64,000 nt of DNA, taken from NCBI GenBank assembly GCA_020161265.1, contig JAIUOC010000008.1:248001-312000 (forward strand), in the 5' to 3' direction. The translations under genes were made by a program, and so were the position numbers. The DNA is from Chloroflexota bacterium. Its GTDB lineage: Bacteria; Chloroflexota; Chloroflexia; Chloroflexales; Herpetosiphonaceae. How positions within the stretch are numbered: position 1 is the first letter of the stretch; every line of letters starts with the position of its first letter. The notes beneath the pieces were generated by a model. That model saw nothing but the letters and a program-made list of their open reading frames with translations, was not told where the DNA came from and made no database searches. Below are positions 17,945 through 33,122 of this stretch, one piece after another.

Positions 17945-17953
17945 TGGTATAGT
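17945..17953 (+). promoter_or_regulatory. Extended -10 for the DNA methyltransferase
   Basis: TGGTATAGT fits the extended -10 pattern and lies 30 bases upstream of the methyltransferase ATG. No clear -35 is seen. Confidence 0.4.
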
Positions 17954-17982
17954 TGGGCAAATTATCGACCAACAGGAAGCCT

Positions 17983-18777
17983 ATGCTGACCCAATCCCTA
18001 TCACAGCTCAATCCACCACTCAAATGGGCTGGTGGCAAACGCTGGCTAATTCCCCGCCTGAGCGATTTTTGGCATACCTATCAAGATTATACCTTGGTTG
18101 AGCCATTTGTTGGTGGTTTGGCGATTGCGTTGGGTTTGCAACCACAACAGGCACTTTTGAATGATATTAATCAGCATGTGATTAATTTTTATCATTGGTT
18201 GCAGCGCGGCTTGGTGATTGATTTTGAATTACGTAACGATCAAACATCGTATTATCGTTATCGCGACCAATTCAATCAATTAATTCGTGCTGGGGCTGAG
18301 CAAACTGCCCAAGCCGCTGGGTTATTTTATTATCTCAATCGCACGGGCTATAATGGCTTATGTCGCTTTAATCAGCGTGGCTTGTTTAATGTACCGTTTG
18401 GTCGCTACAAACGCATTCGTTATTGTTATGATTTTAGCCATTATGCCGAAACATTGGGCCAATGGCAGTTTCAGCAGGGCCATTTTATTGAAATGCAAAT
18501 CCCGGCTCAAGCCTTAATTTACGCCGACCCACCCTACGATGTGCCATTTCGCGCCTATAGCCAGCAAGGATTTAGCTGGGCTGAACAAGTGCAATTGGCT
18601 GAATGGCTAGCGCAACACCCTGGCCCTGTGCTGGCATCGAATCAAGCAACCCAACGTATTTTAGATTTATATCGTCATTTGGGCTTTGCAATCGAGATTT
18701 TGCCTGCACCACGGCGCATCGCCTGCAACGGCGACCGTCAACCAGCGCTCGAAATGCTGGCCTTCAAAGGAGCTTGA
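17983..18777 (+). CDS. D12-class N6-adenine DNA methyltransferase
   Basis: This 264-residue enzyme carries the D12-class (Dam-like) motifs: PLKWAGGKRWL near the N-terminus (AdoMet-binding start), EPFVGG (motif I), NRTGYNGLCRFN, and the catalytic ADPPYD (motif IV) near residue 182. It methylates adenine N6 in a short DNA site; the site cannot be read from sequence. No restriction endonuclease is encoded nearby, so it is an orphan methyltransferase. The ATG at 17983 follows AGGAAG by 4 bases. It is tightly followed by a nucleoside deoxyribosyltransferase-like gene. Confidence 0.92.
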   Translation: MLTQSLSQLNPPLKWAGGKRWLIPRLSDFWHTYQDYTLVEPFVGGLAIALGLQPQQALLNDINQHVINFYHWLQRGLVIDFELRNDQTSYYRYRDQFNQLIRAGAEQTAQAAGLFYYLNRTGYNGLCRFNQRGLFNVPFGRYKRIRYCYDFSHYAETLGQWQFQQGHFIEMQIPAQALIYADPPYDVPFRAYSQQGFSWAEQVQLAEWLAQHPGPVLASNQATQRILDLYRHLGFAIEILPAPRRIACNGDRQPALEMLAFKGA

Positions 18778-18778
18778 G

Positions 18779-19240
18779 ATGGCTGTTGTGCTCAAACCAC
18801 CAACTGCTTTGCCCGCCACCAAAACTATGCCCACGATTTTTCTGGCTGGCTCGATCGATATGGGCAGTGCGATCGATTGGCAAGCTGAAATCGAGCGTCA
18901 ATTGGCCAACGCCGATGTGTTGCTGCTCAACCCGCGCCGCGATGCTTGGGATAGCTCGTGGGCGCAGACGATCGAGAATCCTCTGTTTCGCGGCCAAGTT
19001 GAATGGGAGCTTGACGGCCTTGCCTGCGCTGATTTGATTGTGATTTATTTTGCGCCGCAAACTCAAGCTCCCATCAGCTTGCTCGAACTGGGCTTATTCG
19101 CGAGTAGCGGAAAAGTGGTGGTTTGCTGCCCCGAAGGTTTTTGGCGCAAGGGCAACGTCGATATTATCTGCGCTCGTTACCAAATTCCCCAAGTTGCTAG
19201 CCTCGATGAGCTAATTCAGGCTTGCAAACGCTTGGGATGA
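18779..19240 (+). CDS. Nucleoside 2-deoxyribosyltransferase-like protein
   Basis: This 153-residue protein begins with a strand and loop IFLAGSIDMG, then has LLNPRRDAW, ENPLFRGQVEWEL and FAPQTQAPISLLELG. This layout matches the Nuc_deoxyrib_tr family, where the glutamate in the LLELG helix is the usual catalytic nucleophile. Such enzymes exchange bases on deoxynucleosides; the small members are often encoded by phages or beside DNA-modification genes. The start at 18779 lies one base after the methyltransferase stop, with AAAGGAG just upstream. The pair may be a horizontally moving unit, but no integrase is present. Confidence 0.75.
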   Translation: MAVVLKPPTALPATKTMPTIFLAGSIDMGSAIDWQAEIERQLANADVLLLNPRRDAWDSSWAQTIENPLFRGQVEWELDGLACADLIVIYFAPQTQAPISLLELGLFASSGKVVVCCPEGFWRKGNVDIICARYQIPQVASLDELIQACKRLG

Positions 19241-20457: not shown

Positions 20458-23400
20458 ATGAGTATATCGTCTGCCTCAACCCCAATTGGCGACGTGTTGC
20501 AGCAAATTGCCCAACGTTTCGCCCAAAGCAGCCGCTCGCCTTTGTTGAGGAGTGGCGAATTAGCCTTGCCTGACGCTAGCACCCAACCGCTGCCCTTGGC
20601 TCCGGAGTTGGCGGTAGCTTGGCGGGCCTTGCTCGGCGAAACTGGTTGGCCTTGGCAAGCTGAGGCATTGGCGACCGTGCGACGTGGCTTGGGCTTGGCC
20701 TTGGTTGCACCCGCGCCACTTGGCCCAGCATGTTTATTGCTGTTGGCTGCCGAGCATGTGAGCGCCAATCAAGGTAGTTTGTTGCTGTTGGCTCCTGATG
20801 CTGCTAGCTTGCACGATTTGGCTCAAACTGCGAATAATATTGATGCGCTGCTTGGTGGCGGCTTTCCCCATTTGGTGGTTGAGCAAAGCACCCGCCCACC
20901 GCATAACCCACCGCGTTTGATTTTGACCACCCCTACAATCTTGCATCAACGCATGCTGCGTTCGCACCACCGTGGTTGGTCGAATATTTGGCCACACCTC
21001 AATGGAGTGGTATTGCCAGCCTTTGATCAAGCCAGCAGCACCATCTTTGGCCATTGCCGTTGGTTGATGCGCCGAATCGAACGCTTGCGCCCGCGTGCCC
21101 GACCATTGACGCTCTATGCCAGTTTAGCGCCCGTTGCCGAGATTGATGAATTACTGGCGCGAGTGTTCGACCACTTGCCACCGCTGGTTTATGCCAATAC
21201 CGCCCGCATTCCCTTAACGTGGGCTTTGTGGAATGGTGGCACGCAGCCAGTTGATGCAGCTTTGAAATTAGCCTTAGCCTTGCGCCAAGCAGGTTTAAGC
21301 GTGCAGCTTGATGCACCCGATAGTTTAGAACGGGCGATATTGGCTCAGCGTGGTGCAGCTCAAGGCTTGAGTTTGGTGCCACGGGCGGCGGCTCCAGCCC
21401 ATGTGTTGGTGATGGTGGGTGGCGTGAATGCTACCAGCCTGCCAAGTTTACTCGCCAGCGGACATCGCGCCGTGGTGTTGGTGACCGATCAATCGATTGC
21501 TGCCCAAACCGCCTTGGCTCAACCAGCCTTGCTCACCCCAACTGTGCCACCAGCCTTGCCCGTGGCCACCCAAAACAACTACATCAGCAGTAGTCATCTG
21601 CGTTGCGCCGCTGAAGAACGGCCCTTACAACAAAGCGAAATTAGCGCGTGGGAAGTGAGCGATCTAGTTGAGCGTTTGACCCAGCGCAATCAGCTAGCCC
21701 AGTTGCCCGATAGCCCAACCTGGCAACCAGTCGCCAATTTGCAGCAGCGCAGCGATATTTATGCCACGCTGCATCCAACCACAATTAGCGATGTGCCTGT
21801 GCAGATTGTCGATCACGAAGGCTCATTTTTGGCCGAGCTTGATTCGGTGACGGTTGAGCGGCGTTTATTTAGCGGCGCTAGTGTGCTCGGTGGGCGGGTG
21901 ATTGGCTGGAATGATGATGGTTCGTTGGGCTTGCGTTTGCAGGATGTTGCGCCAACCTTGGCTGAACATCGCTGTAGTGTTGCGGTGCGCGAGCAATTTG
22001 GTCAACGCCCGCTTGATGGCGCACGCGCCGAGATCGAATTAATGATTGGTCGTGTGGTGGCAACCGAGGAAATTGTGGCGCGGCGCAGCGTGGCTGATGA
22101 TGGCGGCATTCGGCGTGTGCCGTTTGAGCCGCCGATTCAGCTTCAGTGGAATGCGCCAGCGCTGTGGTTGGCTGCGCCAGAAGCTGGGGCTGGCTTGGGC
22201 GAAATCCTGCTAGGCGTGTTGCCATTATTGCTGCACTGCCAACCTGATGCGATGGTTGCCTGTGTCAGCGATCAACACTTGTATTTGGTCGAGGCTCAAC
22301 CTGGCGGGCGCGGCATCGTTGAGCAGTTGTATAGCCAATTTGAGGCTTGGCTGCATTTGGCTGGCTTGGCGGCTCGCACCCTAAGCAAAGACCCGTTGTA
22401 TGCTAGTTATGCACAGGCCGAATTGCGTTGGCTTGAAAAGATTTTGGTGCCACTCGCTGCCCCATTACGCGCCGATATGCCACCAGAGCCAGCCCAAGTT
22501 GCACCGCCACGAGTCGAGCGAGCGAGCCGTCAATCGATGGTGATTAGCACCAACGATTTGAATGCCCGCCGCCGTGGACGGGGCAATGTGTTTGCGCTGC
22601 CACGTTCACTACCCAAGCAAGGCGAGGCGATCAAGCGTAGTCCAACCAATCCTGTGCCAAACCAACCAGCTTTGCCTGCGCAGCCCATGCGTTTGGCCGC
22701 CCAACAACCGCCAGCCAACAAGCCGCTGACCAACCAACGCCCAGCGGTGCGCAACGAAGCTCCGCCAGCGCCGCCTAGCCCTGAAAAAGCTAAGGCCAAC
22801 CTGACCCGACCGTCACGGCGTAAGGCTAACGTTGGGCGCAATGAGGCGCAGCGCTCAACCCAGCCATTGGTACAACCCAAAACGCCAGCGCCAAGCAACC
22901 CCTTGCCGCCTGAACGCGGTTCAGTGGTTGTGCCTGTGGCCAACGAGCCGCCGCCCTACGAACGGCCACCGTTTCAACAGCGCAACCCACCAGAAAAACC
23001 AGCGGCCCAGCGCCCAAGCTCACGGCCTGCCCAACGCGAAAGCCAGCCGCAGCGGCCAGTTCAGCGTGAACAGCCAGCGCGACTATATCAGCGCAACGAT
23101 CAGCCGACCAAGCCGATGCCACGCGAAAATCAGCCGCCACAGCGTCCGCTTCAACCTGCGCAACAACCAGCGCGACCGTATCAGCGCAATGATCAGCCAA
23201 CCAAGCCGATGCCACGCGAAAATCAGCCGCCACAGCGTCCGCTTCAACCTGCGCAACGGCCAGTTCAGCCAAACTTGGCCGAGCCAGTGCGGCCATATCA
23301 ACGTAATGAGCAACCAGCCAAGCCCGTGGAAGCTGCTGCCGATCCACGCACAATGCTTGAAAAAGCGCGGCGTTTACGTGAGCAACGCGAAGCTGAAGCC

Positions 23401-23649
23401 CGTGTAGCGCAGCCAATCACGCGGCCAAGCCCCAATCAAGCCGCCGAGCCAAGCGAATCGCGTTTCAAACAAGGCGATCGGGTGCATTGCGTGCCCTATG
23501 GCGAGGGTGTGGTGCAAAAAACGCGCATCCGCGATGGCCGCGAGCTATTGCTGGTACAATTTCCAGAGCTAGGTGATCTACGGGTTGATCCAGCAGTCAA
23601 TGCTGTACGCATTCTACGCCCTGAGATTCAAGCCGAAGACGACGACTAA
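20458..23649 (+). CDS. Degenerate MrfA/DUF1998-helicase-like protein with disordered tail
   Basis: This 1063-residue protein follows the layout of MrfA-type SF2 helicases, but the catalytic motifs have decayed. PWQAEAL (65-71) matches the HQAEA motif. The Walker A position reads APAPLGPAC (84-92), with no lysine. The strand before motif II ends in PAFD (187-190) instead of DEAH/DEVH. The SAT position reads ASL. A region around 577-650 with YLVEAQPGGRGIVEQLY resembles the C-terminal DUF1998 of such helicases, but without the Cys zinc site. Residues 678-1000 are a Pro/Gln/Arg-rich disordered stretch with 31-residue repeats. The last 60 residues form a GDRVHCVPYGEGVV Tudor-like domain as in UvrD/PcrA C-termini. 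I infer a non-enzymatic DNA- or protein-binding descendant. Confidence 0.7.
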   Translation: MSISSASTPIGDVLQQIAQRFAQSSRSPLLRSGELALPDASTQPLPLAPELAVAWRALLGETGWPWQAEALATVRRGLGLALVAPAPLGPACLLLLAAEHVSANQGSLLLLAPDAASLHDLAQTANNIDALLGGGFPHLVVEQSTRPPHNPPRLILTTPTILHQRMLRSHHRGWSNIWPHLNGVVLPAFDQASSTIFGHCRWLMRRIERLRPRARPLTLYASLAPVAEIDELLARVFDHLPPLVYANTARIPLTWALWNGGTQPVDAALKLALALRQAGLSVQLDAPDSLERAILAQRGAAQGLSLVPRAAAPAHVLVMVGGVNATSLPSLLASGHRAVVLVTDQSIAAQTALAQPALLTPTVPPALPVATQNNYISSSHLRCAAEERPLQQSEISAWEVSDLVERLTQRNQLAQLPDSPTWQPVANLQQRSDIYATLHPTTISDVPVQIVDHEGSFLAELDSVTVERRLFSGASVLGGRVIGWNDDGSLGLRLQDVAPTLAEHRCSVAVREQFGQRPLDGARAEIELMIGRVVATEEIVARRSVADDGGIRRVPFEPPIQLQWNAPALWLAAPEAGAGLGEILLGVLPLLLHCQPDAMVACVSDQHLYLVEAQPGGRGIVEQLYSQFEAWLHLAGLAARTLSKDPLYASYAQAELRWLEKILVPLAAPLRADMPPEPAQVAPPRVERASRQSMVISTNDLNARRRGRGNVFALPRSLPKQGEAIKRSPTNPVPNQPALPAQPMRLAAQQPPANKPLTNQRPAVRNEAPPAPPSPEKAKANLTRPSRRKANVGRNEAQRSTQPLVQPKTPAPSNPLPPERGSVVVPVANEPPPYERPPFQQRNPPEKPAAQRPSSRPAQRESQPQRPVQREQPARLYQRNDQPTKPMPRENQPPQRPLQPAQQPARPYQRNDQPTKPMPRENQPPQRPLQPAQRPVQPNLAEPVRPYQRNEQPAKPVEAAADPRTMLEKARRLREQREAEARVAQPITRPSPNQAAEPSESRFKQGDRVHCVPYGEGVVQKTRIRDGRELLLVQFPELGDLRVDPAVNAVRILRPEIQAEDDD
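23071..23256. repeat. Tandem 93-base repeats in the disordered tail
   Basis: Two nearly identical 93-base units (23071-23163 and 23164-23256) encode 31 residues each, around YQRN-D/QPTKPMPREN; a decayed third unit follows. They expand the disordered Pro/Gln/Arg-rich region of the helicase-like protein. Confidence 0.85.
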
Positions 23650-25691: not shown

Positions 25692-25763
25692 ATTGCATTG
25701 ACATCAAGGAACGCGGCGTGCTATCGTTGCCACAGAGTCTCATGATTGTGGAGTGATCGTTGT

Positions 25764-26660
25764 ATGATTGCTTGTCCTGTCTGTAATGCGACCAACCAAA
25801 CAGGTGCGTTATTTTGTGAAATGTGTGGCCATCGTTTGCCAACCGTGGCAGCGGCGGTCACCCCACCGCGTGCGGTTGCAGGTGGCGTTCAATGCCCAAC
25901 CTGTAAGCATATTGCTACGCCTGGCGAGGCTTTTTGTGATGAATGTGGCACGCCGTTGAATGTTGGAGTTGTCGCTGCTCCCGCTGTGCCAGTTGCGCCT
26001 GCGCCCGTTGCACCGAGTGTTCAGCCCGCGCCTCAGCCCAGTTATCCCGCACCGCAACCGATTGCCAATGCAGCACCAAGCTGCCCAAGCTGTCGCGCGG
26101 CGGTTATTCCTGGCGAGGCTTTTTGCGATAACTGTGGTGCTTCGTTGTTGGCGGGCGCACCTGCTGCTCCAGCCGCTCGACCAGTTGCTCCTGCACCTGT
26201 GCAGCCAAGCTATGCACCGCCAGTCCAAGCTGCTCCGGTTGTGCCAGCAGCGCCGGTTTACACGCCACCACCAGCGCCCGTTGTGCCAAAACCACCTGTG
26301 GCAGCGCCCGTTGTTCCGGCAGCGGTTGGCATTCAATCGTTGGCGGGGTTTGTGCTGGTAACAGCAGCGGGCACACGGATTAATTTGCCAGCCAAAGCCG
26401 AGATTGTGGTAGGCCGCGAAGATGCTGTCTCGAATAATTACCCTGATGTTGATTTAAACCCCCATAATGGCTTGGCCGATGGCGTTGGCCGTCGCCATGC
26501 CCGAATTTTTGTGCGGGCTGGCGTGGTGCAACTTGAAGATTTGGATAGCACCAATGGAACAACCGTGAATAAACAACGGCTCCAAGCTCGCCAAGTAGTT
26601 AATTTAAATGTTGGCGATGAAATTCGCCTTGGACGATGTGTGTTGCAATGGCAACGCTAG
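25764..26660 (+). CDS. Triple zinc-ribbon and FHA domain protein
   Basis: This 298-residue protein has three N-terminal zinc ribbons: CPVC-CEMC near residues 4-21, CPTC-CDEC near 43-60 and CPSC-CDNC near 107-124. A Pro/Ala/Val-rich linker follows, then a C-terminal FHA domain (about 213-298) with VGRE, RRHARIF and STNGTTVN. FHA domains bind phospho-threonine. Its gene sits directly before a pseudokinase and near two Ser/Thr kinases, so it may be a substrate or scaffold of those kinases. The start at 25764 has GGAG about 10 bases upstream; the longer frame from 25746 is less likely. It stops 15 bases before the next gene. Confidence 0.85.
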   Translation: MIACPVCNATNQTGALFCEMCGHRLPTVAAAVTPPRAVAGGVQCPTCKHIATPGEAFCDECGTPLNVGVVAAPAVPVAPAPVAPSVQPAPQPSYPAPQPIANAAPSCPSCRAAVIPGEAFCDNCGASLLAGAPAAPAARPVAPAPVQPSYAPPVQAAPVVPAAPVYTPPPAPVVPKPPVAAPVVPAAVGIQSLAGFVLVTAAGTRINLPAKAEIVVGREDAVSNNYPDVDLNPHNGLADGVGRRHARIFVRAGVVQLEDLDSTNGTTVNKQRLQARQVVNLNVGDEIRLGRCVLQWQR

Positions 26661-26675
26661 TGTGATGTAGCAGTT

Positions 26676-28808
26676 ATGAGTGGACAGGCCACGTTTCAAC
26701 AAGGACGCTACCAAGTACGCAATGAGCTGTTTCGCGATGAATGCGGCGTGATGTATTTGGCGGTCGATGGCAAGATGGCAGGCCGCGAGGTTGGCTTGCG
26801 CCAACTCAATGATGGTGTTTTAGATGCAACCTCGTTGCAACGCTTGGCGCAATTAAACCAAGCGGCCTTGCCCTCGGTCTATGATTTATTCGAGGAGCAT
26901 GGCCAGCGCTATTTGGTGTTGGAATATCCGCGTGGCCAAACCTTGGCCGATGTCGCGCTTGGGCCGCGTTTGCGCGAGGGCGTGGTGCTGGCGTGGGCCA
27001 AGCAAATTGCCGAAGGTTTGCGCTATTTGCATAGCCAAGGCTTTGTGCATGGCGATATTCAGCCGCAAAATATCGTGCTGCAAGATGGCCGCCGCATTAA
27101 ATTGCTTGGTGGTTTGCCCGCTGGCTGCCCCAAAAACGCTGGTTCGCGCTATGCAGCACCCGAAATTTGGAGCGGCGCGACGGCCACGCCAGCCTCAGAT
27201 ATTTATGCTTTGGGCGCAACGCTGCACCACTTGCTGACTGGCACTGACCCCAATACCCAGCCGCTAATGGCTTTTGCTCCGCCTGATGTGCGACGGCCCG
27301 ATCTTTCGCCAGCGGTTTCGCATGCGATTGTCAAAGCTCTGAGCCAACAACCGCAACAACGTTTTGCCAATATCGAGCAATTTGTGGTGGCTTTGAGCCA
27401 AACCAGCAGTACCCATGAATCGGCGGGCGATTTGCCAGTAATTGGCTTTACGCCTTCGATTTTGCCTAGCACACCAGCCGATGGCCCAACTCAACGCTAT
27501 GTGCCCTCGGAAAGCTCGCCAATTCCGGTGCCGCCTGGCCGTGGTTCTACCGCTCAATACGATCAGGCGATGCTTGAGCAATTGCTCATTCCTGATCGCG
27601 ATCTTGGGCCAGCGCCTTCGATTTTGCCCAAACGCCCAGCTCAACAAAATAGTCGGGCTGGGTTGATTGTGCTAGGGGTGTTTATTGGCTTGGCCTTATT
27701 AGCGGGCGCATGGCTATTATTCAAGCCTAAGGGCAATGCCTTTGTTAATGCCACGCAGGTTGCCAACAATGGCTTGCCGACCGTTACCCGTGATGAAGGG
27801 ATTTTGCTAAGTGATAGCGCCAAAACCGCCACCGCTTTGGCCGCAATTCCGCCTGCAACTCAAATTCCAACCCTCGATGTGCCACGGGCGACCGCTGATG
27901 CGATTCAAACATTTACCGTTGCAACCCAATTAGCCTTTGATGATGCGCTTGATGCCCGCTATCAGCGTGGTATGGCCTACGAAGAAACTGGTCAATATGG
28001 CTTGGCATTAAGCGAATATGACGAAATTTTGCGCCAAGACCCGACCTATAAAGATACTCAGGCACGCCGCGACCGAATTAAGATTTTTGTTGATGCCACG
28101 GCAACGGCTGGCCCTCAACAAACCACGATTGCTGGCGGCACGGCCACCGCTGTCGCTCAACCAAGCCCAACTGCTTTGCCAGCTACCCCAACTGCCACGC
28201 CAATTGGCCAAATCGTTGGCGATAGCTTCAATGGCAGCACACTTGAGCCGCGTTTGTGGGCTGGCGAAACTCGCGATGGCACAATTCAATTAACTAATGG
28301 CGAATTGCAACTCGCGGCAACCAGTGCCACCTGCTATCCAGTTGTGCGCACGATTACCGATACGCTGTTTCCGGTCAACAACTTTACCTTGAGCGTAACC
28401 TTCCGCTACTCCGATGTCACGGCCTTGGGCACGGGCTTTATGCTGGCTGATGCAATGGCTACGCCCTGTGGCGAAACCGATCGGGCTGGGACAAGTTGGG
28501 GCGGCATTTGGCAAGACGAAACACAAGGGCTAATCGTCGAATTCCATCGCGATCAAACGGCTGATAACGAATTAAAAGATATTCGCTTGCCCTATACCAA
28601 CGGCCAAATTGATACCGCCGAACATACCTTGATCATTCAACAGCGGAATGGTCAGCAAACCTTCATTCTTGATGGCAATGTGCTATTCACTGAACAAGCT
28701 GGTGCACAACCGCAAGTACTTTGGTTTGGCAACCCAAGCCGCACCGCGATTGCCTCGCCCTGGACAGTGCTGAATATTCTGAGTGTTGATCTGCGCGAAG
28801 AACTATAA
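26676..28808 (+). CDS. Ser/Thr pseudokinase with membrane anchor and lectin-like domain
   Basis: This 710-residue protein has an STK-like domain at 10-265 that looks catalytically dead. The VAIK lysine position reads VGLRQ. The catalytic loop is HGDIQPQN, so the aspartate is kept but the HRD arginine is lost. The DFG motif is replaced by LLGGLP. A membrane helix lies at about 327-349. The extracytoplasmic part has a TPR-like segment (about 420-475, with YQRGMAYEETGQYGLALSEYD) and then a concanavalin-like domain (about 512-710). A dead kinase with a sensor-like exterior suggests allosteric control of a partner kinase rather than phosphoryl transfer. It is 15 bases after the FHA gene and is followed by a strong terminator. 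Confidence 0.85.
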   Translation: MSGQATFQQGRYQVRNELFRDECGVMYLAVDGKMAGREVGLRQLNDGVLDATSLQRLAQLNQAALPSVYDLFEEHGQRYLVLEYPRGQTLADVALGPRLREGVVLAWAKQIAEGLRYLHSQGFVHGDIQPQNIVLQDGRRIKLLGGLPAGCPKNAGSRYAAPEIWSGATATPASDIYALGATLHHLLTGTDPNTQPLMAFAPPDVRRPDLSPAVSHAIVKALSQQPQQRFANIEQFVVALSQTSSTHESAGDLPVIGFTPSILPSTPADGPTQRYVPSESSPIPVPPGRGSTAQYDQAMLEQLLIPDRDLGPAPSILPKRPAQQNSRAGLIVLGVFIGLALLAGAWLLFKPKGNAFVNATQVANNGLPTVTRDEGILLSDSAKTATALAAIPPATQIPTLDVPRATADAIQTFTVATQLAFDDALDARYQRGMAYEETGQYGLALSEYDEILRQDPTYKDTQARRDRIKIFVDATATAGPQQTTIAGGTATAVAQPSPTALPATPTATPIGQIVGDSFNGSTLEPRLWAGETRDGTIQLTNGELQLAATSATCYPVVRTITDTLFPVNNFTLSVTFRYSDVTALGTGFMLADAMATPCGETDRAGTSWGGIWQDETQGLIVEFHRDQTADNELKDIRLPYTNGQIDTAEHTLIIQQRNGQQTFILDGNVLFTEQAGAQPQVLWFGNPSRTAIASPWTVLNILSVDLREEL

Positions 28809-28823
28809 CCACGTTTAAGTGTT

Positions 28824-28860
28824 AGCCCCTTGCTTGTAAATCAGGCAGGGGGCTTTTTTT
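28824..28860 (+). terminator. Intrinsic terminator after the pseudokinase
   Basis: AGCCCCTTGCTT pairs with AGGCAGGGGGCT (two G-T pairs) and is followed by a T-run of about 8. It ends the FHA-pseudokinase transcript. Confidence 0.85.
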
Positions 28861-28978
28861 GATCGATACGGCGGCACATAGCTAAAAAATTGCTTTTCAG
28901 CCAATTACAACGCTGAATTAATCTGCAGAAATTTGGGCTAGCCTGACCATTTAAACTATATTTTGATGATTGAATCGA

Positions 28979-28984
28979 CTATAA
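28979..28984 (+). promoter_or_regulatory. -10 element of kinase gene
   Basis: TATAAT lies about 45 bases upstream of the kinase start at 29028, in an AT-rich region following the terminator. A good -35 is not obvious. Confidence 0.4.
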
Positions 28985-29027
28985 TAGCAATGTTATGGTT
29001 AAGTAGCTCTGTGGTGAGGCAATTGGC

Positions 29028-30956
29028 ATGTTGAAAAGTGGCACAATTATTCAGGATCGCTACACGATTGTGCGGCCCTTAGGCAGCGGCGGCTTTGGGG
29101 CGGTCTTTTTGGCCACCGATGGTCGCTTGGGCCAGCGCAATGTGGCGATTAAATATTTTGCTACTGCTCATATGCGCCCCGATGAACTCGATTCGTTGGC
29201 GCATTTGTTTCAGCAAGAAGCTCACACGTTGGCCAGTTTGAGCCACCCCAATCTCGCTCCAGTGCTTGATTATTTTGCGGTTGATGATGGTTGGATGTTG
29301 GTGATGGGCTATGTGCCAGGCGAGTCGTTATCGGCCTTGCAAAAACGGCTCAACGGCCCCTTCGGCGAGCAACAGGTAATCGATTGGGCAATTGAGTTGT
29401 GCCATGTGTTGGAATATTTGCATAACCAACGCCCACCACTAATTTTCCGCGATCTCAAGCCTGCCAACATTATGCGCACTCCCGAAGGCAAAGTTATTTT
29501 GATCGATTTTGGGATTGTGCGGCGCTTCAAAGAGGGTCAGCACCAAGATACGATTCAAATTGGCACGCCTGGCTATGCGCCACCAGAGCAATATGGCGGC
29601 CAAACCGAGCCACGCTCCGATTTATATAGCCTTGGCTCGACGATGTATGTGTTGTTGACCAACGAGCGCGTGACCAGTGGCTTGCGTTTGCCGCCAGTTA
29701 GTCAAAGTGTTGAGTGGGTTTCGCCTGCACTTGATGATTTGATTACCCAATTAACCTCGCTGCATATTAATCAACGGCCTGCTTCGGCTGCGGCTGTGCG
29801 TGCCGAATTGGAGCGAATTCGCGATACGCCAATGGTGCCAATCGCCGATCCTTTTGCGATTGTGCCGCAAGCCGCGCCCTACCGCAATGCCGAAGCGCCA
29901 ACGCGGGTCAATCCACAGATACAACAACAGCAAAGCTATGGGCATGCCAGCGTTACGCCCCAGTCAATTCAGGCAACTCCCCAGCCTGTAATCAATCAGC
30001 GCCAAGCTCAGATTTGGCCTTGGCTACTGCTGTTTGTTCTATTGTTTGGTGGTGGCGGGGCGGGCTGGTGGTATCTCAATCGTTCGAATCAAACGGATCA
30101 ACCGCTCGTTGTGCCAACTCAGCCCAGTGCTTTGCCCGATAGTGCCGAGGGCGATTTAATTATATCCTCGCGTGACGGCAACAGTGGCGCATACACCTTG
30201 CTCAGTTTGGATATCCCGACGGGCACGGTGAGCGAAGTTGTGCCGCATCACGATGATAATGCCATTGCTTCACGGCGACGGAGCGATGGCCGTGTAGCCT
30301 ACTCGCATGGGGTTGATGGGCTTGAGCAGATTTTTACGATTAGCGCTAATGGCAGTGATGAGCGGCAATTGACCAGCGCCCCAGGCGAAAGCCGTGCCCC
30401 ACGTTGGTCGCCTGATGGGAGCAAAATTGCCTTCGAAAGCGACCGTGATCGCAGCAATAACAATAGTTTTGATATTTATATTATGGATGCTGATGGCTCG
30501 AATGTGCAGCGGGTGACGGCGGAAGGCGGCTGGCAAGGTGGCCCCGCCTGGTCGCCCGATGGCACAAAGCTGGCGTTTCACAGTCAAACCAGCGGCCTCT
30601 ATGAAATTGTGGTGCTTGATTTGACCGCCAACAAGCAATATTTGTTGGCCAGCGTCGATGATAGTGCTTTTTGGGCCGATTGGTCGCCCGATGGTCAAAC
30701 GATTGCCTTTATGACTGGCGATAACGATAGCCGCACCAAAATTTACACCGTACCAACTAGCGGCGGCGAACCACGCGAGCTAACTAACCTTGGCACTGGC
30801 AAAAATCGTTGGCCGCGTTGGTCGCCGGATGGGCGCTATTTGGCGTTTGAAAGCTATCGCAACGATCATTGGGGCATTTATCTGCAAAATCTGGCAACTG
30901 GCAAGGTTGAAGCACTCTCCGATGGCACGCGCCACGATCGCTGGCCATCATGGTAA
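29028..30956 (+). CDS. Membrane Ser/Thr protein kinase with PD40 propeller
   Basis: This 642-residue transmembrane kinase of the PknB/Hanks type has a glycine loop LGSGGFGAVF, VAIKYF with the lysine near residue 40, FRDLKPAN near 140-147 and DFGIVR near 158-163, so it appears active. The HRD histidine is Phe here, a common tolerated change. After a linker, one membrane helix (about 327-349) leads to an extracytoplasmic PD40-type beta-propeller (about 375-642) with repeated RWSPDG blades. Such a propeller likely senses or binds a ligand in the envelope. GAGG lies about 9 bases before the ATG. It follows the pseudokinase with its own promoter. Confidence 0.93.
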   Translation: MLKSGTIIQDRYTIVRPLGSGGFGAVFLATDGRLGQRNVAIKYFATAHMRPDELDSLAHLFQQEAHTLASLSHPNLAPVLDYFAVDDGWMLVMGYVPGESLSALQKRLNGPFGEQQVIDWAIELCHVLEYLHNQRPPLIFRDLKPANIMRTPEGKVILIDFGIVRRFKEGQHQDTIQIGTPGYAPPEQYGGQTEPRSDLYSLGSTMYVLLTNERVTSGLRLPPVSQSVEWVSPALDDLITQLTSLHINQRPASAAAVRAELERIRDTPMVPIADPFAIVPQAAPYRNAEAPTRVNPQIQQQQSYGHASVTPQSIQATPQPVINQRQAQIWPWLLLFVLLFGGGGAGWWYLNRSNQTDQPLVVPTQPSALPDSAEGDLIISSRDGNSGAYTLLSLDIPTGTVSEVVPHHDDNAIASRRRSDGRVAYSHGVDGLEQIFTISANGSDERQLTSAPGESRAPRWSPDGSKIAFESDRDRSNNNSFDIYIMDADGSNVQRVTAEGGWQGGPAWSPDGTKLAFHSQTSGLYEIVVLDLTANKQYLLASVDDSAFWADWSPDGQTIAFMTGDNDSRTKIYTVPTSGGEPRELTNLGTGKNRWPRWSPDGRYLAFESYRNDHWGIYLQNLATGKVEALSDGTRHDRWPSW

Positions 30957-30968
30957 TGCGTTTATAAT

Positions 30969-31172
30969 GGGGGCCAGGGATCAGGGATCAGGGGTCAGAG
31001 CTTAGGCTTGTACCTGCTTGTGTACTTCGTTTCCTTCGCAGATCAAGATTTTAACATAGAGGCGGAGAGATGTGAGGCGCTAGGCTTTTGGCTATCGGAA
31101 TGATTAAAAGGTTTGGCAAGGGCAGTGGATTGGCACGGGAGACTGATCCCCAGCCCCCAATAACCGACCCCT
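30969..31172. repeat. MITE-like intergenic element with imperfect terminal inverted repeats
   Basis: The left end carries AGGGATCAGGGATCAGGGG and the right end the inverted form (CTGATCCCCAGCCCCC). Between them is a module with TTAACATAGAGGCGGAGAG and GAGGCGCTAGGC. The same ends and module recur near 50738-50878 and, in parts, at 35759, 44291, 45216 and 60714. No transposase is encoded. Confidence 0.55.
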
Positions 31173-31181
31173 AAACAGATT

Positions 31182-33122
31182 ATGCGCGAACGATATCGGT
31201 TTGTCGAACAACTTGGAAAAGGTGGTTTTGCCACTGTTTGGCTTGCCTACGATCAACAGATCGGTGGGCTATGTGCGGTTAAACAAAGTATTGCCGCCGA
31301 ACCCGAAGTTGTCGAGATGCTCGAAGCCGAAGCCACTATTTTGGCGGGTCTTGCCCATCCGTCGTTGCCGCGCATTCGCGATCATTTTGTGCACGAAGGC
31401 CGTGCCTGTGTCGTAATGGATTATATCGAGGGCGTTGACCTAAGTGTGTTGCTGGCAACCGAGCACGATGGGATTGCGCCCAAACGGGTGGTTGAATGGG
31501 CACAGCAATTGTGTACTGCGGTGCAATATATTCACACCCTGCCGCAACCTGTGCTGCACCGCGATATTAAGCCATCGAATATCAAGCTCACGCCTGATGG
31601 TCGCTTAGTCTTGATTGATTTTGGGATTGCGCGTGATCTCAAGGTTTCGAGTTTGGGTTTGCGGCGGGCGGTGACTGCTGGTTATTCGCCGCCAGAGCAA
31701 TATCGCGGCCAAACTGATGCGCGTTCGGATATTTATGCCCTAGCAGCGACGATTTATGCCTTATTGACTGGGCGTGCACCGCTGGCAGCTCCTGCGCGGT
31801 TGATTGGCGAAAGCTTGCCTGCACCCTCAGCCTTGCGCCCCAGTTTGCCAAGTGCTTTAGATCAGCCGTTGTTACGTGGGTTGGCCTTGGAGCCAGCAGC
31901 ACGTCAGCAATCGGCGGGCCAGTTGGCTTTAGAATTGATGACTGCTTGGCGTTCGGTGCAGCCAGCTAGCCCCAAGTTGCCCAACATTCGCACCAAACCG
32001 TTGATTCAAACCCGCACTTGGCGACATTGGTTGGGGTTAGGTTTGGTTGGCAGCCTTAGTTTGGGTGGCTTTAGTGCAACGATTTGGAGCTTGCTCAATC
32101 AACAAAATGCGGCTGAGGCCTCGCCCAATTGGCAAACCTATTTTCCAGCATTGTTGAATAATAGTGCGACTTCGGCTCCGTTGTTCACGCCAACGCCCGC
32201 GCCAACCAGCACACCCGCGCCGACTGCTACGCCCGCGCCAACCTCGACGATCCAGCCATTGATTGCCGGATTAACTGGCTATTTCTTTGTGGGCATGCGC
32301 GAAGATGATGGCGATTATCAAATTTATCGAATTCCAGCGATGGGCGGCGAACCGCAGCAATTGACGACGCTTGGCTCAAATTATGGTGGAGTGGTGTCGC
32401 CCGATGGTCGGCAAATCGCCTTTACCTCCGAGCGCGATGGCCGCGAACAAGTCTATGTGATGAAGGTTGATGGCAGCGATCAGCGGCGCGTGACCAATGA
32501 CCCTGGGCGTTGTGAATACCCAAGTTGGTCGCCTGATGGCAAACAATTGGCCTATGCCCATCGGCGGCTTGATGATCTGAAGGAAAATAGTTCAACGATT
32601 TATATTCAAGCGCTTGATCAAACCGAGGGCCAGCAATTAACCAAAATGTGGGGCACAATGCCAACTTGGGGCCAGCAAGGAATTGTGTTCACCAGCCGCG
32701 ATATTGTTGAGAATATCGAGCAACTAGGTTTGGCTATTATTCAGCCCGATGGTAGCGGCTTGAAAATTATTAACCCAACCCGCGACCGCGACGAACATTA
32801 TGCCGAATGGTCGCCTGATGGCAAATCTATCGCCTATGTGGCTGGCGATAGTCAGCGCACAATTACCCGCCAAATTTGGGTGATGAACGCCGATGGTTCC
32901 AATCCGCATCCGCTGACCAAGGGGCTTGGTGGGGTAACTCAGCCGCGTTGGTCGCCCGATGGCAAATGGATTGTCTTTTTGGCGAAGTGGGGCATGCCCG
33001 ACGATTTGCAAAATAATCGCCCGCGCTTCAATGTGTGGGTTGTCTCAACCGAGGGCGGGCCAGCCAAGCCCTTTACCATCTCCGAGGCCAACAAATTTGG
33101 GCTAGGTTGGGGGCCACGCTAG
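31182..33122 (+). CDS. Membrane Ser/Thr protein kinase with PD40 propeller (second)
   Basis: This 646-residue kinase has LGKGGFATVWL, CAVKQS with the catalytic lysine near residue 31, HRDIKPSN near 125-132 and DFGIAR near 145-150, so it looks active. Then come a membrane helix (about 284-303), a Thr/Pro/Ala linker (TPAPTSTPAPTATPAP) and a PD40 propeller (about 363-646) with repeated WSPDGK blades. It shares architecture with the kinase just upstream, consistent with duplication. It lacks a strong ribosome site; the ATG at 31182 lies 9 bases after the repeat element. Its last four bases overlap the convergent histidine kinase gene. Confidence 0.92.
   Translation: MRERYRFVEQLGKGGFATVWLAYDQQIGGLCAVKQSIAAEPEVVEMLEAEATILAGLAHPSLPRIRDHFVHEGRACVVMDYIEGVDLSVLLATEHDGIAPKRVVEWAQQLCTAVQYIHTLPQPVLHRDIKPSNIKLTPDGRLVLIDFGIARDLKVSSLGLRRAVTAGYSPPEQYRGQTDARSDIYALAATIYALLTGRAPLAAPARLIGESLPAPSALRPSLPSALDQPLLRGLALEPAARQQSAGQLALELMTAWRSVQPASPKLPNIRTKPLIQTRTWRHWLGLGLVGSLSLGGFSATIWSLLNQQNAAEASPNWQTYFPALLNNSATSAPLFTPTPAPTSTPAPTATPAPTSTIQPLIAGLTGYFFVGMREDDGDYQIYRIPAMGGEPQQLTTLGSNYGGVVSPDGRQIAFTSERDGREQVYVMKVDGSDQRRVTNDPGRCEYPSWSPDGKQLAYAHRRLDDLKENSSTIYIQALDQTEGQQLTKMWGTMPTWGQQGIVFTSRDIVENIEQLGLAIIQPDGSGLKIINPTRDRDEHYAEWSPDGKSIAYVAGDSQRTITRQIWVMNADGSNPHPLTKGLGGVTQPRWSPDGKWIVFLAKWGMPDDLQNNRPRFNVWVVSTEGGPAKPFTISEANKFGLGWGPR

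Follow-up and report, generated by a model that had tools for sequence, protein, structure and literature searches.

A motor-less MrfA-lineage helicase with a PcrA/UvrD-type Tudor domain retained across Chloroflexales, and its possible role as a scaffold

A 64,000-nucleotide stretch of a genome of the genus Herpetosiphon (assembly GCA_020161265.1, contig JAIUOC010000008.1, positions 248,001 to 312,000; referred to as the window) contains, at positions 20458-23649 of the forward strand, an intact open reading frame (ORF) of 1063 amino acids without internal stops. The encoded protein combines a core with the predicted fold of the superfamily 2 (SF2) helicase MrfA, from which the catalytic residues are gone, with a long low-complexity tail and a C-terminal Tudor domain of the PcrA/UvrD type. 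Homologues with the same losses were found throughout the order Chloroflexales and are under strong purifying selection. We propose, with about even confidence, that the protein is a pseudohelicase peculiar to the order, which would act as a scaffold and be tethered to a putative partner by a docking domain of the PcrA type. The features are listed below by window position, with residue numbers in brackets.

20458-23649, + strand: complete gene (1063 aa) for an MrfA-lineage pseudohelicase that has a disordered tail and a PcrA-type Tudor
20584-21207, + strand: RecA1-like domain (~43-250), lacking motifs I, II and III and retaining motif Ib TPxxLH (158-163); from the AlphaFold model, the MrfA match and the motif tally
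20707-20733, + strand: degenerate Walker A position APAPLGPAC (84-92), no Lys
21016-21027, + strand: degenerate motif II position PAFD (187-190)
21118-21132, + strand: degenerate motif III position ASLAP (221-225)
21208-21567, + strand: RecA2-like domain (251-370), ~50 residues shorter than in MrfA, without motif V and with motif VI QxxGRxGR deleted
21568-21777, + strand: HRQ1/MrfA winged-helix domain (371-440), the best-kept part, with CAAEExP; Pfam PF22982 in 30/30 members
21778-22197, + strand: beta-rich OB/connector-like region (441-580); from model secondary structure and the MrfA alignment, domain names by analogy with PMC12458937
22198-22455, + strand: DUF1998/MZB remnant (581-666), PGGRG kept, Cys4 zinc site deleted; Pfam PF09369 in 30/30 members
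22456-23328, + strand: Pro/Gln/Arg-rich low-complexity tail (667-957), predicted disordered by composition, net positive here
23069-23161, + strand: 93-nt (31-residue) repeat, copy 1
23162-23254, + strand: 93-nt (31-residue) repeat, copy 2, 95% identical
23344-23406, + strand: short conserved charged helix preceding the Tudor (~963-983, within DPRTMLEKARRLREQREAEAR), modest pLDDT (predicted local distance difference test)
23461-23622, + strand: C-terminal Tudor domain (~1002-1055), PcrA/UvrD type

The first-pass annotation, made from the letters of the window, had described a catalytically dead MrfA-like helicase with a repetitive tail and a Tudor-like end, and its sequence readings were recovered in the translated ORF. 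Walker A, motif II (DExH) and the SAT of motif III are replaced as given above; PGGRGIVE of the DUF1998-like block lies at residues 615-622, Cys4 is absent from that block, and the C-terminal sequence quoted then, GDRVHCVPYGEGVV, occupies residues 1006-1019. The 31-residue repeats correspond to a 93-nt direct repeat in two copies of 95% identity, to which a degenerate third copy is added in the protein.

The losses were evaluated by comparing 30 dead members of the order with 35 further MrfA-like homologues, taken both within and beyond the order, 34 of which were aligned. The Walker A lysine, DExH and SAT were each kept in none of the 30 dead members, and the region of motif VI and that of Cys4 were deleted in all of them. 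All 35 other homologues carry whichever motifs their fragments cover (a TxTASGKT-type Walker A, DExH, SAT and QQxGRxGR); the catalytic residues are kept in 33-34 of the 34 aligned active relatives, where Cys4 was found in many by simple pattern and in 32-34 at each of its four cysteine columns by alignment. The tally of zero in 30 rules out an active relative with unusual motifs. From the motif loss, ATP-driven 3'-5' unwinding is predicted to be absent, and the catalytic loss is, judged by the alignment, ancestral to the whole order, which extends the original description beyond a single genome. Thirty-six alignment columns are conserved in both the dead and the active group, including motif Ib (P159, L162, H163), H199, R206, R209, the winged-helix CAAxExP and, in DUF1998, GGxG. 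Motif Ia, the GDTP loop and motif V are among the columns conserved in the active proteins only; the loss therefore spans nucleic-acid as well as ATP motifs.

An SF2/DUF1998 fold of the MrfA kind had been claimed for the core, and structure prediction upheld it. AlphaFold2 modelled residues 1-672 with a pLDDT of 87.8 and a predicted template modelling score of 0.89, confidence being high over ~8-665. A profile of the core (30 homologues) gave one convincing match among solved structures, MrfA/YprA (6znp, E 6e-44), in two stretches, the first covering RecA1 and the second running from the end of RecA2 through DUF1998. With the core model as query, the first four Foldseek matches were MrfA structures (6znp, E 2.8e-34), and VIA-align against MrfA gave a Z of 26.2 over 585 residues at 17% identity, the next family being Lhr (Z 21.4). 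Profile match and both structural rankings agree in assigning the MrfA fold to the modelled core despite its low identity. The prediction contains the SF2 core, winged helix, OB/connector and DUF1998 canopy that make up MrfA/YprA helicases. With this group (Hrq1-like, DUF1998/MZB SF2; 6znp/6znq/6zns) the window protein shares the domain order and the predicted fold over ~585 residues, as well as motif Ib, the winged helix and, in the DUF1998 domain, PGGxG; it differs in lacking motifs I, II, III, V and VI and Cys4, in a RecA2 shorter by ~50 residues, and in the additional disordered tail and Tudor. Scanned as a single sequence against Pfam, it stayed below the cut-offs for WHD_HRQ1 (370-407; 23.7 vs 27 bits) and for MZB, the MrfA zinc-binding domain (582-635; 17.7 vs 24.2 bits); both domains were matched by 30/30 family members at E up to 1.

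Homologues were searched for in the class (158 genomes) and in a phylum sample (301 genomes), with the first two to five candidates scored per genome. According to the match tables, a complete or fragmentary homologue is present in 79 of 82 Chloroflexales genomes. The three genomes without a match are 60-76% complete, and all 56 genomes of at least 90% completeness and at most 5% contamination carry the gene, with one homologue per genome across the order. Outside Chloroflexales, the class and phylum samples yielded no full-length member of the dead family, only helicase-core matches of at most 145 bits. Over the core, identity is 94-98% within the genus, 42-56% within the family and ~30% in other families; near-identical homologues come from H. 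aurantiacus, H. giganteus, H. geysericola and H. llansteffanensis. In a maximum-likelihood tree of 62 sequences, all 29 dead sequences fell on one side of a single branch (Shimodaira-Hasegawa-like approximate likelihood-ratio test support 100), so that the dead lineage is, by this phylogeny, one clade. Herpetosiphonaceae form a supported subgroup, and the remaining family grouping (root arbitrary) agrees with, and is consistent with, vertical inheritance across Chloroflexales.

The frame is intact in six Herpetosiphon species. Between these species, the ratio of non-synonymous to synonymous substitution rates (dN/dS; Nei-Gojobori, approximate where dS exceeded 1, as some values did) amounted to 0.03-0.05 in the core, 0.06-0.10 in the tail and 0.08-0.17 in the helix-Tudor part. 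For the pair of the window and H. aurantiacus, the core value is 0.030, and four neighbouring genes gave 0.042, 0.082, 0.037 and 0.050. Purifying selection on the gene is strong, and since its core dN/dS is as low as that of its neighbours, it is no pseudogene. A decaying pseudogene or an annotation artefact, for which the loss of all catalytic motifs would speak, is thus refuted by the frame kept intact in the sister species and order-wide. Conserved intact frame, vanished catalytic residues and purifying selection together mark the protein as a pseudoenzyme, and the retained non-enzymatic role proposed in the first-pass annotation is supported by this combination.

A canonical active paralogue, recognised by a strong MZB match, was found in 18 of the 82 order genomes; the dead protein (79/82) is thus retained more consistently than the active one. 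The two occur together in some genomes (families f2 and f3 and one f1 genome), as would be expected if the dead protein were a regulatory subunit of the active MrfA. This arrangement is very improbable, being largely refuted by the overall co-occurrence and by the window's own genome, which has no canonical paralogue and in which the only other MZB protein found is a Druantia type III-like DruE helicase of 1695 residues (contig C7 198030-203117, L238:3531-8618; PADLOC E 3e-95). Three other ORFs of more than 250 aa around this DruE gave no PADLOC model match.

Some motor-intact relatives are worth recording. Two from the phylum sample (L183 and L184, families f65 and f69) score 207-208 bits against the dead-core profile, among the top such relatives, and may stand near the ancestor of the dead lineage; the tree does not settle their placement. 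A locus of candidate division FCPU426 (L173:5464-8499) was rejected as a further member, since it encodes an active MrfA-like helicase with all motifs and Cys4 intact; its C-terminus, read by eye, is apparently fused to an MrfB exonuclease-like sequence (VVFDIETQ...IGFNSQRFDYGVL). The second of the two FCPU426/Chthonomonadaceae loci from the search, L175, gave a weak helicase-core match and is not counted as a member either. Adjoining the pseudohelicase, no MrfB exonuclease gene was recognised within the window.

The Tudor-like end was modelled as a five-strand barrel with a pLDDT of ~92. Its six closest structures are C-terminal Tudors of PcrA/UvrD, the top matches being 5dma, 7egs, 9dqs and 6yi2; 7egs, a complex with an RNA polymerase lobe, is among the closest, 7egt, with UvrB, ranks lower, and CarD follows. 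VIA-align likewise placed 5dma first (Z 8.6) and 7egs second (Z 8.3). While a single-sequence Pfam scan of the window's Tudor domain gave no match, a Tudor profile searched against 201 genomes from the phylum recovered, beyond the family, mostly frames of ~735-890 residues, with E reaching 8e-11. At the end of the two best matches, UvrD-type motifs precede stretches such as VEPRFHPTDRVRHPVWGEGIVMESRIQDGDE, the PcrA Tudor, and the profile and PF21196 identify one and the same PcrA in the own genome. A CarD_TRCF_RID profile gave weak matches in 4 of 24 members (best E 0.03), and a plasmid search with the Tudor gave no match. The domain is specifically of the PcrA/UvrD type, which sharpens the earlier description.

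With the PcrA/UvrD Tudor (5dma, 7egs, 7egt, 9dqs; PF21196) the domain shares its fold and clear sequence homology with same-phylum PcrA C-termini, and in both cases a long flexible linker ties the domain to the C-terminal end of a helicase body; that body is a superfamily 1 motor in PcrA/UvrD and a dead SF2 core here. The RNA polymerase-interaction domains of CarD and Mfd have a Tudor-like barrel in common with it (CarD, ~33% identity over ~60 columns), but their fold match is weaker than that of PcrA/UvrD and the phylum-wide profile recovers PcrA C-termini instead. The PcrA Tudor binds a TGE-tipped beta-hairpin in RNA polymerase beta and in UvrB (PMC8318588, PMC5397179). In this genome, UvrB has a perfect TGE motif (VDPLTGEIL) and RpoB a near-match, HLSTGELI, without the Asp.

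The proposed mechanism starts from an ancestral MrfA/YprA-type SF2 helicase that lost motifs I, II, III, VI, Ia, GDTP and V and the zinc site while retaining the domain frame of RecA1, shortened RecA2, winged helix and DUF1998 canopy. This frame, to which a long and apparently disordered Pro-rich tether and a terminal PcrA/UvrD-type Tudor are now attached, could serve as a rigid protein-interaction platform. The Tudor, on a flexible line as in PcrA/UvrD, would dock the core to a fixed transcription or excision-repair partner (candidates are RNA polymerase beta, UvrB and other proteins that have a comparable beta-hairpin motif), and the docked protein might recruit, hold or block other factors without ATP. 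Loss of the motor and zinc residues, strong selection and a docking-type Tudor on a flexible tail indicate that the protein is probably a scaffold and no enzyme. What was lost and what was kept thus support the scaffold role, and the pathway is suggested by the ancestry of both parts; DNA-repair scaffolding, as first put forward, is one among several possibilities. A bolder version would make the protein a Chloroflexales-specific general transcription or transcription-coupled-repair factor, in which the dead MrfA lineage captured a PcrA-type Tudor and rides RNA polymerase or UvrAB as an ATP-independent scaffold, essential or near-essential order-wide; we consider this version unlikely, at roughly one chance in four.

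Several observations weigh against the docking proposal. The Z of 8.6 for the small barrel is barely above that of unrelated Tudor folds (7.8); fold alone is therefore weak for the PcrA/UvrD assignment, and sequence decides. Mutation of H681, W684, K712 or L714 of PcrA severely reduces RNA polymerase binding (PMC5397179), and these positions correspond here to C1011, Y1014, R1042 and D1044 (gapless alignment, register ~±1 residue); they are H, F, K and L in the PcrA of the own genome, while C1011 and D1044 are invariant or nearly so across the order. With the four contact residues changed, canonical RNA polymerase binding may be lost. A conserved neighbourhood pointing to transcription or repair was not found, with zero neighbours common across families. 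Finally, the core is acidic, at a pI (isoelectric point) of ~6 and a net charge of ~-10 in the window protein and at pI 5.4-6.3 in 30/30 dead members. As far as sequence comparison goes, the domain descends from that of PcrA, and its binding face changed and was then fixed. Since this face differs from PcrA at the four mapped contacts, the surface that it recognises on its partner is probably other than the canonical helicase interaction motif, and a lineage-specific partner, or a lineage-specific reading of a similar motif, is the best inference.

The same replacement of PcrA contacts by order-conserved residues, together with the loss of the DNA-contact motifs Ia, GDTP and V and the lack of conserved repair or transcription neighbours, would also fit a scaffold or structural protein unlinked to transcription or repair. 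Core and Tudor would then both have been recruited to another complex, for example one connected with the filamentous, gliding cell type, and the Tudor would read a different ligand. This is a possibility to be held only tentatively, at a little under one chance in three, because MrfA and the PcrA Tudor, from which its two parts derive, work in DNA repair and transcription, and because its Tudor is closest, in fold as well as in sequence, to readers of RNA polymerase and UvrB.

Between core and Tudor, the long disordered tail of the first-pass annotation is supported by composition. In a full-length alignment of 19 members, it is Pro-rich and poor in hydrophobic residues in all 19, and it varies between species in sequence, in length (80 to 791 residues) and in charge (-17 to +32), being strongly basic in the window's species (net +28). 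The 31-residue repeats are seen in Herpetosiphon and differ between its species. The short charged helix preceding the C-terminal domain is conserved, and the architecture of tail plus C-terminal Tudor is conserved across the family. The basic tail, the winged helix and the conserved motif Ib TPxxLH with the H199/R206/R209 helix, largely common to active helicases, could alternatively form a non-motor DNA-binding factor, a passive clamp or loader on single-stranded DNA or forks, for which the Deinococcus PriA pseudohelicase is a precedent (PMC4504706). The range of tail charge between species, the acidic cores and the loss of motifs Ia, GDTP and V stand against this reading, which we regard as improbable; acidic core and lost motifs argue against a simple DNA clamp, and we infer a protein platform in preference.

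As proposed for the pseudohelicase, Deinococcus radiodurans PriA (PMC4504706) and yeast Utp25 (PMC9539457) have a helicase fold without helicase activity and another job. Both belong to helicase families other than that of the pseudohelicase. Neither is known to carry a Tudor domain on a long tail. A search of the open literature, with most subscription journals outside its scope, found no description of the Chloroflexales family. MrfA/YprA helicases have so far been studied as motors in repair and phage defence; a motor-less lineage kept by a whole order, more consistently than the active enzyme, suggests that the DUF1998 helicase frame can probably scaffold, and the PcrA-type Tudor offers a direct, testable route to its partner. 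In Chloroflexales, filamentous phototrophs and predators whose transcription and repair systems are little studied, the pseudohelicase is a near-universal, order-restricted component.

A role as a defence gene was considered as well. Defence YprA helicases (DISARM DrmA/B, Druantia DruE, ARMADA, Dpd) share YprA-family ancestry with the window protein but, unlike it, are motors encoded in defence operons and carry additional zinc-binding or nuclease parts (PMC12458937). PADLOC matched no model to the window protein and no defence neighbours were seen; as distribution and tree also fit vertical descent, this candidate was rejected.

The gene order of the window is shared only within the genus, an inositol monophosphatase neighbour being found also in one other family member. 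The nearest neighbours, a beta-propeller protein, the inositol monophosphatase and HisC (identified by eye), are housekeeping genes that give no functional hint, and a promoter and terminator scan revealed nothing exceeding shuffled controls. The stretch 17953-19240 carries a D12-class adenine methyltransferase gene and, next to it, a nucleoside 2-deoxyribosyltransferase-like gene (Pfam), both kept in H. aurantiacus. The stretch 25746-33122 encodes a zinc-ribbon/FHA protein and then three consecutive protein-kinase-like ORFs (kinases by eye), all of which are likewise kept in H. aurantiacus.

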